Position numbers and translations under genes: made by a program. Shown here one piece after another: positions 4,291 through 40,921 of a stretch of 64,000 bases of DNA. Under the pieces are notes generated by a model that searched no databases, was not told the origin of the DNA, and worked only from the letters and a program-made list of their open reading frames with translations. Every line of letters begins with the position of its first letter. The first letter of the stretch is position 1. The stretch is from Bdellovibrionota bacterium (lineage in GTDB: Bacteria > Bdellovibrionota > Bdellovibrionia > Bdellovibrionales > Bdellovibrionaceae). The stretch lies in the NCBI GenBank assembly GCA_963170155.1, contig CAUJGP010000036.1:1-64000 (forward strand), read 5' to 3'.

Positions 4291-4296
4291 CTCTTT

Positions 4297-4668
4297 CGGT
4301 TTTGAGGATGGTCGCGGTCAATTCAATGAAAATACGGAGATTTGACTGAGGAAAGTCCGGACTCCATAGGATAGCACAGGGGGTAACGCCCCTCCATCGT
4401 AAGGTGAGGAACAGTGGAACAGAGAAAAAGTCCAGAGCTATGATCCTGAAGGCGGGAACGGGAGCCTTGAGGGGAGCTGCTGGAGTGAAAATAGCCAAAC
4501 TCTGTGCGGAGCAAGATCAAATAGGGAGACGATTAAATGCGATCCGCATGTGTCTCCGGGTAAGATCGCTTGAGGGTTTATGTGAATAAACTCCTAGAGG
4601 AATGACCATCTCTAGAAAAACAGACAAGGGTTTTTCTAAAGACAGAATCCGGCTTATCACAAAACCCT
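4297..4668 (+). ncRNA. rnpB: RNase P RNA (catalytic RNA, bacterial type A-like)
   Basis: Contains the hallmark conserved region GAGGAAAGTCCGGACTCC at 4348-4365 (P3/P4/J3-4 area). Near the 3' end it has the matching AGAATCCGGCTTAT at 4645-4658. Further family blocks are AACAGAGAAA, GGAGCAAGATCAAATAGG and GGAATGACCATC. The P1 helix can be drawn between GGTTTTG (4298-4304) and CAAAACC (4660-4666), which sets the ends. The RNA cleaves the 5' leader from tRNA precursors together with the RnpA protein. Ends are good to a few bases. Confidence 0.93.
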
Positions 4669-4709
4669 AATAGGACAACTTCAAACCTTGTTTTATTAGT
4701 CTTGTCGGT

Positions 4710-40496: not shown

Positions 40497-40536
40497 CGTC
40501 AACTTGTCTGGTAATGCAAAATTTATCCTGAAACAA

Positions 40537-40562
40537 AAAACCCGCTTTTTACAGCGGGTTTT
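40537..40562 (-). terminator. intrinsic terminator of the tRNA-Leu transcript
   Basis: AAAACCCGCT / AGCGGGTTTT around a six-base loop. On the minus strand it is followed by TTGTTT, and it lies 15 bases after the tRNA 3' end. It can also stop the plus-strand small gene. Confidence 0.8.
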
Positions 40563-40577
40563 AAAATCAAAAATAAA

Positions 40578-40921
40578 TGGTGGCTCCGGGGAGAATCGAA
40601 CTCCCACGCCCTTGCGGGCACTGGATTTTCTTACCACTCTGATTTTCATCAGCTCCGTTATCAGAGTTTGTGGTCTGGACTATGCCTTGACCGTGGAGCC
40701 TTACAGCTCGTTAGGTCCCGCTCGTCTAGTCTCTACACCTTCCGAAGAGATTTCTCTCTAAGGCTTGGCTCGGCATTAGCAATCTCATTAAAGAGATAAA
40801 GCCTTCACCGAATTTGGGCGGTTCTACTCCGAGGGTTTCCCCAAGGGCACTCAATTTATGCTGATTTTTTATGAGATCAGCGGTCTGAGTCCAGCGCGTC
40901 TACCAATTCCACCACAGAGCC
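40578..40921 (-). tRNA. tRNA-Leu(CAA), interrupted by a group I intron
   Basis: Exon 1 is 40921-40887 (35 nt) and exon 2 is 40629-40578 (52 nt). Joined they give an 87-nt class II tRNA. Acceptor GGCTCTG pairs with CGGAGCC, the discriminator is A, and CCA is encoded. The anticodon arm is CTGGA-CTCAAAA-TCCAG with anticodon CAA. A Leu-type variable arm (GCCCGCAAGGGC) is present, and the T arm is GGGAG-TTCGATT-CTCCC. The split follows the first anticodon base (C34). Without removing 257 nt no valid anticodon loop forms. Confidence 0.93.
40630..40886 (-). ncRNA. group I intron (IC3-like) inside tRNA-Leu
   Basis: 257 nt, ending in the expected G (complement of 40630). Conserved core blocks, read on the minus strand: GGGGAAACCC (40833-40842), GCCGAGCCAAGCC (P4/P6 area, 40762-40774), GGTGTAGAGACTAGACG (P7/R, 40723-40739) and AAGGCATAGTCC (P7/S, 40677-40688). 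These follow the pattern of the cyanobacterial tRNA-Leu(UAA) intron. P1 can form between ACTC at the end of exon 1 and GAGT near 40847-40850, making a C-G pair at the 5' splice site where U-G is usual. No homing endonuclease ORF. Confidence 0.9.

Follow-up and report, generated by a model that had tools for sequence, protein, structure and literature searches.

The window analysed here, by which we mean the whole 64,000-nucleotide stretch of DNA from a Bdellovibrionota bacterium related to predatory bacteria, raises the question as to whether a segment on its minus strand is a tRNA-Leu(CAA) gene interrupted by a group I intron, and how an intron of a kind familiar from tRNA-Leu(UAA) came to lie at the same site in another isoacceptor. 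The best explanation overall, which we consider very probable, is a Leu(CAA) gene split after C34 by a group I intron with helices P1 to P9 and a C34-G pair at its 5′ splice site. The features of the gene are as follows.

40887..40921, minus strand: 5′ exon of tRNA-Leu(CAA), 35 nt, positions 1-34, last letters CTGGACTC (C34); from the sequence and ARAGORN.
40630..40886, minus strand: group I intron, 257 nt, start AGACC, end GTGGTAAG (terminal omega-G); from Rfam RF00028, covariation and intronless orthologues.
40849..40852, minus strand: internal guide sequence GAGU, predicted to pair with A31 C32 U33 C34 (P1; C34-G at the 5′ splice site); from the alignment of 33 introns.
40578..40629, minus strand: 3′ exon, 52 nt, beginning AAAATCCAG, with variable arm, T arm and encoded CCA; from the sequence, ARAGORN and orthologues.
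40532..40560, minus strand: terminator-like stem-loop with T run (CCCGCTGTAAAAAGCGGGTTTTTT), directly 3′ of the tRNA; judged by eye from the sequence.

Joining 40921-40887 to 40629-40578 on the minus strand gives an 87-nt class II tRNA with anticodon CAA, and the coordinates, exon sequences and intron length given for it in the initial annotation all proved correct. The 5′ exon reads GGCTCTGTGGTGGAATTGGTAGACGCGCTGGACTC and is identical or near-identical to intronless Leu(CAA) genes of the order. The expectation that ordinary tRNA scanners might overlook the gene was borne out by ARAGORN, which at default settings calls no tRNAs in the window; the same program reads the spliced 87 nt as tRNA-Leu(caa) and, once it may consider introns, recognises Leu(caa) in the unspliced gene and places an intron at (36,257). 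Comparison with other tRNA-Leu genes had been suggested at the outset. Query pieces 1-36 and 293-344 align side by side on the Leu(CAA) genes of the order that have no intron, and the point where they meet is the predicted junction; ARAGORN reads these genes as Leu(CAA). Since the pieces abut on one tRNA in intronless genomes the junctions are fixed independently of any model.

A 5′ splice site placed one base earlier, after U33, would keep the U-G pair and yield a product other than Leu(CAA). This register is real in six look-alike loci, where the 3′ exon begins TAAAATCC and a GGGTC guide pairs U33 with G, which makes them Leu(UAA). The window sequence contradicts it and we find it barely credible here: the guide is GAGU, the base preceding AAAATCC is the terminal G and not T, and when shifts of 1-2 bases were compared only the register 35/257 combined a normal leucine tRNA with an intron ending in G.

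We ran the covariance search that the initial annotation had called for, and the insert matched Rfam Intron_gpI (RF00028) over the full model length (1-253) at 37.4 bits with an E value of 8.8e-7. This match is not chance, and because its score lies below the curated cut-off of 50 bits a default Rfam scan misses the intron and shows only RNase P in the window. The latter is a bacterial class A RNase P RNA at 4296-4672 on the plus strand (216.8 bits).

P1 to P9 were drawn by hand on the window sequence and pairs were counted over 33 introns from 32 loci. In the 33 sequences the drawn fold leaves 90.4% of cells paired, and shifting it by 1-3 columns lowers this to 27-40% (40% for a shift of one column), a comparison in which a structure drawn from the window row favours the percentage paired and not the double changes. 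Covariation was 0.342 compared with 0.139 +/- 0.006 for shuffled alignments (0/500 shuffles as high), changes on both sides occur in 46 of the 69 pairs, and covariation is strong in P3, P7 and P8. The P3-P7-P8 core with its pseudoknotted P3/P7 is present, with 89% of P3 cells and 100% of P7 cells paired, and two P7 pairs change from C-G, U-A to G-C, C-G (CU to GC) in the proteobacterial clade. The elements concerned are listed below.

40818..40822, minus strand: P3, 5′ strand, pairs with 40717-40721; double changes in 5/5 pairs.
40717..40721, minus strand: P3, 3′ strand; from covariation.
40727..40731, minus strand: P7, 5′ strand (GACUA), guanosine-binding helix, pairs with 40678-40682; double changes in 3/5 pairs.
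40678..40682, minus strand: P7, 3′ strand (UAGUC); from covariation.
40860..40881, minus strand: extra hairpin in the P1 loop (GCUGAU...AUCAGC); both-side changes in 5/6 pairs.

The P1-loop hairpin is present in Bdellovibrionota CAA introns and absent from proteobacterial ones. Only 40% of cells are paired in the P5 extension (helix 7), an outer stem that is therefore not conserved. A homing endonuclease inside the intron was considered and rejected, the longest stop-free stretch being 55 aa. Rfam match, covariation and intronless orthologues agree on the proposal of a 257-nt group I intron after position 34 that ends in G, and the insert is of the Azoarcus-like (IC3) kind. It has the insertion after position 34, the GAG guide and the AAAA 3′ exon of IC3 tRNA-Leu introns, and a terminal G together with GAGY near the 5′ end is found in all 101 Leu(CAA) introns. 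The spliced tRNA reads CAA, which sets the intron apart from the cyanobacterial/plastid tRNA-Leu(UAA) intron proper. It can be aligned throughout with UAA introns of its own and other genomes (DNA match 69% over query 68-344), and judging from these sequences the two kinds share a common descent.

A U-G wobble at the 5′ splice site is near-universal in group I introns, with natural exceptions known, and a C-G pair there is rare and should serve less well as a substrate than U-G. The window intron has C34-G in place of the wobble. A guide G lies opposite base 34 in 33/33 aligned introns, 26 of them with C-G (CAA genes) and 7 with U-G (UAA genes), so the pairing noticed in the initial annotation is seen both in the window and in all aligned CAA introns. 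The genome's Leu(UAA) intron has the identical GAGU guide, and only base 34 of the tRNA differs; as the guide is common to both, the intron can stay as it is when UAA becomes CAA, and nothing compensates.

In the splicing that we propose the precursor would fold into P1 to P9, the guide GAGU would pair with A31-C32-U33-C34 and thereby set the 5′ splice site at C34-G, and an external guanosine held in P7 would attack after C34. The freed 3′-OH of C34 would then attack after the terminal G, with P10 (UU against A35-A36) aligning the 3′ exon to give the anticodon loop CUCAAAA. Splicing in the cell, its unaided course, its efficiency with a C-G 5′ site and any role of the intron are what we infer here. 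UUA codons need Leu(UAA), whose gene in this genome is interrupted by a related intron, so use of that gene would require the organism to be able to splice introns of this kind.

One could instead suppose that the tRNA gene is dispensable and that the insertion in it has decayed and no longer splices, as UUG may be readable by Leu(UAA) via wobble and a genome whose Leu(UAA) also reads UUG could tolerate loss of the Leu(CAA) gene. We regard this as highly improbable, because the core helices are all intact and covarying, the exons are unchanged and followed by the terminator-like stem-loop, and the arrangement is kept in 101 genomes. An intact Leu(CAA) elsewhere in the genome had been named as a finding that would speak against the intron, and none was found by tRNA family search or by DNA search. 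The DNA search of the genome gave only two matches, the window gene and the Leu(UAA)-intron gene, and an exact search for the tRNA 3′-end pattern gave no match. The tRNA family search, with 150 of 209 candidates scored, returned 27 tRNAs, none of them Leu(CAA), Leu(UAA) or Ile2(CAU), and the genome has exactly three Intron_gpI matches, which lie in the genes for these three tRNAs. The Leu(UAA) gene is intron-bearing with the same core, and the third is a tRNA-Ile2(CAU)-type gene on contig C12 (L001:1501-1753) whose group I intron follows position 36 and scores 84 bits. The tRNAs for His, Arg(ACG), Ser(TGA) and Ser(GCT) were also absent among the 150 of 209 candidates scored in this genome, which is 100% complete, and this may be a limit of the search.

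Among known systems, the Anabaena-type IC3 intron of tRNA-Leu(UAA) in cyanobacteria and plastids has the same site after position 34, a GAG guide to C32-U33-N34, the AAAA 3′ exon and the same core layout. The window differs from it in the CAA isoacceptor, in C34-G instead of U-G, in the Bdellovibrionota host and in the extra P1-loop hairpin. We use the comparison with Anabaena as supporting only. The core blocks of the Azoarcus tRNA-Ile(CAU) IC3 intron are nearly the same (AAAUUCGG, GAGCCAAGC, GAAGGUGUAGAGACUAGACG, AUAGUCCAG), a comparison that likewise is supporting only, and the Azoarcus intron lies after position 36 of tRNA-Ile(CAU) as against position 34 of Leu(CAA) in the window. The group IC3 intron in tRNA-Leu(UAA) of cyanobacteria and plastids is described in Paquin et al. 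1997, as cited in PMC8450103 and PMC4033280. In Beggiatoaceae group I introns occur in tRNA-Leu(UAA) and tRNA-Arg(UCU) (PMC4853749); as in our case these tRNA introns were overlooked by annotation, the difference being the anticodon, UAA and not CAA.

The tRNA gene lies between a secretin/Flp-pilus region and a block of genes in the order OMP-(unknown)-GNAT-rimP-nusA. In many genomes of the order Leu(CAA), whether or not it has the intron, is flanked by parts of the OMP-rimP-nusA block, the full block is found in five other intron-bearing or disrupted genomes, and the OMP gene adjoins intronless Leu(CAA) copies in about a dozen genomes. Genomes of the order thus differ in whether this orthologous gene has the intron or lacks it. 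The window copy is at the ancestral locus, without tRNA halves. In two genomes of the order (G118 and G076) intron-bearing Leu(CAA) genes are at other locations, and other contigs of G076 additionally hold fragments and a copy that has no intron.

A DNA search found the Leu(CAA) intron in 8 of 141 genomes of the order, many genomes being without it, and among 369 genomes of the phylum there were none outside the order. The eight CAA introns from Bdellovibrionota fall into a single clade (100/99), with the Leu(UAA) intron of the window's own genome outside it, and the proteobacterial CAA introns form a separate clade which contains one UAA intron (L230). Two independent origins of the CAA introns were considered on the basis of an initial AU test (p 0.0006), and this reading was withdrawn because the rejection hinges on that one Leu(UAA) intron; with L230 allowed p was 0.40 and a single origin of all CAA introns is compatible with the data. 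Within the Bdellovibrionota clade genome families are intermixed, the window gene shares about 90% identity with its counterpart in G118, which belongs to another family and has a NusA only 70% identical, and G010, with a NusA 78% identical, is without this intron. We read these three observations together as horizontal movement within the order, and most likely the intron reached the gene horizontally from another lineage of the order and was not copied locally from the Leu(UAA) gene. The likeness to G118 supports the transfer named in the earlier suggestion of transfer or ancient retention with compensating change, and the compensating change fails on the unchanged GAGU guide.

Local copying would mean a duplicated Leu(UAA)-intron gene whose anticodon mutated from U34 to C34, and the Leu(UAA) gene of the genome does offer the same site, the same guide and a related core. 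We nevertheless hold this to be very unlikely, as the exons match intronless Leu(CAA) genes of the order at the syntenic locus (3′ exon 98%, 5′ exon 100%) and not Leu(UAA), and the intron groups with the CAA introns of other genomes, yet an AU test does not reject its pairing with the genome's own UAA intron (p 0.158).

A pattern scan of 84,980 species genomes yielded 105 stretches, in which both splice sites were then delimited. This gave 93 Leu(CAA) cases outside Bdellovibrionota, in named public genomes, and 7 already-known Bdellovibrionota cases. All 93 read CTC/...G/AAAA with a GAG guide, and the carriers are mostly Burkholderiales, Steroidobacteraceae, Rhodanobacter and other Gammaproteobacteria; a few carrier records titled Mycobacterium or Streptomyces look like binning errors. 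The gene is not an isolated oddity, since a Leu(CAA) intron at the same site is common to 101 genomes, and the claim that the site of Leu(UAA) introns is used in another isoacceptor holds for the window sequence and for its relatives. No report of a Leu(CAA) group I intron was found in the open-access literature; subscription journals or database annotation may hold one.

Six further loci (L114, L124, L125, L128, L270 and L298), four from the genome scan and two on viral contigs, were tried as CAA and rejected: with a GGGTC guide and a T as the first base of the 3′ exon, they are tRNA-Leu(UAA) genes split after U33 that retain U-G at the splice site. On one Burkholderiales MAG contig (L121:845-1680) a Leu(UAA) and a Leu(CAA) gene, both with introns, stand in tandem at a distance of 588 nt. 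Among viral contigs from IMG/VR (L200-L319), at least 120 carry intron-bearing tRNA-Leu genes, 109 of which were delimited as Leu(UAA). On the enterobacterial resistance plasmid pCTX-M3 (L320; NC_004464.2 near 61860) a tRNA-Leu(UAA) gene with an intron, absent from the annotation, is found close to aac(3)-IId, and about 1258 plasmid records hold similar sequence. Other tRNAs are affected as well, with a group I intron (53 bits) after position 36 of an apparent tRNA-Asn(GUU) (L031:1501-1701; G014:C90, minus strand) and one in an apparent initiator tRNA-Met that leaves the whole anticodon CAT in the 3′ exon (L357; G301:C63, minus strand).

The proteobacterial relatives bear on how such genes arise. 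An intronless 5′ half of a resident tRNA-Leu lies about 225 nt upstream in 28 of the 89 testable proteobacterial Leu(CAA)-intron genes. These halves stop just after the anticodon loop and are mostly followed by the conserved element end AATAGG, with nearly the same 20 bases in most; that these bases are shared though the half differs by up to 12/35 bases from the intron-bearing gene is expected for a host half joined to an element end. Ten carrier genomes were searched with the spliced tRNA-Leu(CAA) for the missing 3′ half, and in five it was found on the same contig, starting CTCAAAAT, at a distance of 14-73 kb: 66.8 kb in Variovorax sp. UMC13 (L378/L379), 66.8 kb in Diaphorobacter (L380), 73.4 kb in Allopusillimonas (L381), 25.5 kb in Bordetella genomosp. 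7 (L382/L383) and 13.9 kb in Alcaligenaceae SAGV5 (L384). The five elements have an intron-bearing replacement tRNA-Leu(CAA) at one end and CTCAAAA, the anticodon loop, at both, and in 4/5 genomes the element has, immediately inward of the 3′ half, a tyrosine integrase that includes an arm-binding domain. The conjugation gene TrbI follows the tRNA gene in four loci (L171, L189, L195 and L139), together with CagX in L171. The 5′ halves, distant 3′ halves and integrases point to integrative elements, probably conjugative, that cut the resident gene in the anticodon loop and bring an intron-bearing replacement, on which the intron may serve to keep the integrase off. Among 109 viral-contig Leu(UAA) introns the attachment-half pattern was sought and gave one weak upstream match only.

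Could the window gene be the left-over of such an element, one that cut the resident gene and has lost the rest, its intron persisting, or having spread at one time, through splitting the attachment core and so blocking the integrase? Beyond the 5′ and 3′ halves, integrases and conjugation genes of the proteobacterial loci, an upstream half occurs within the window's own order at G122 (Leu(CAA), at the same locus) and at G118 and G113 (Leu(UAA)), with an integrase adjoining in G113. The split resident tRNA flanking an element was seen in five proteobacterial genomes and not in the window, where no 5′ or 3′ tRNA half was found, nor any integrase or conjugation gene among the neighbours scanned, and the window intron is in a different clade from the proteobacterial element-borne introns. 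As the window is without halves or integrase, an element is a possible but somewhat doubtful origin for its gene. A degenerate 5′ half upstream of the window gene was tried and rejected, with a local score of 6 against a shuffled mean of 7.4. At G010:C49:1-380 (L034/L328) a 5′ half of tRNA-Leu(CAA) is followed by a second tRNA-Leu start, whose D loop is seemingly interrupted (GGTAAATCG...) by group I-like sequence before the contig end cuts it off.

A further idea, in our view rather unlikely, is that Leu(CAA) introns are the armour of element-borne replacement tRNAs: the element would attack the host gene in its anticodon loop (core CTCAAAA) and make good the loss with a copy of its own, whose loop a self-splicing intron splits and so protects from a second attack, with the window gene a domesticated survivor. 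Randau and Soell proposed for archaea that tRNA introns protect against integration (as set out in PMC4090602 and PMC4390854), and the likeness is that an anticodon-loop intron destroys the attachment site; the archaeal introns are on host genes, whereas in the proteobacterial relatives the tRNA with the intron arrives on the mobile element itself. The integration-blocking idea is directly testable in these relatives because element, broken resident gene, integrase and intron-bearing replacement are all on one contig.

A gene split after C34 by a group I intron is thus a little-noticed arrangement in about 100 bacterial species, and it accounts for default annotation reporting no tRNA-Leu(CAA) in such genomes. 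It adds a second isoacceptor to the range of bacterial tRNA-Leu introns and offers, in about 100 natural group I introns with C-G for U-G, a set for studying 5′ splice-site choice.
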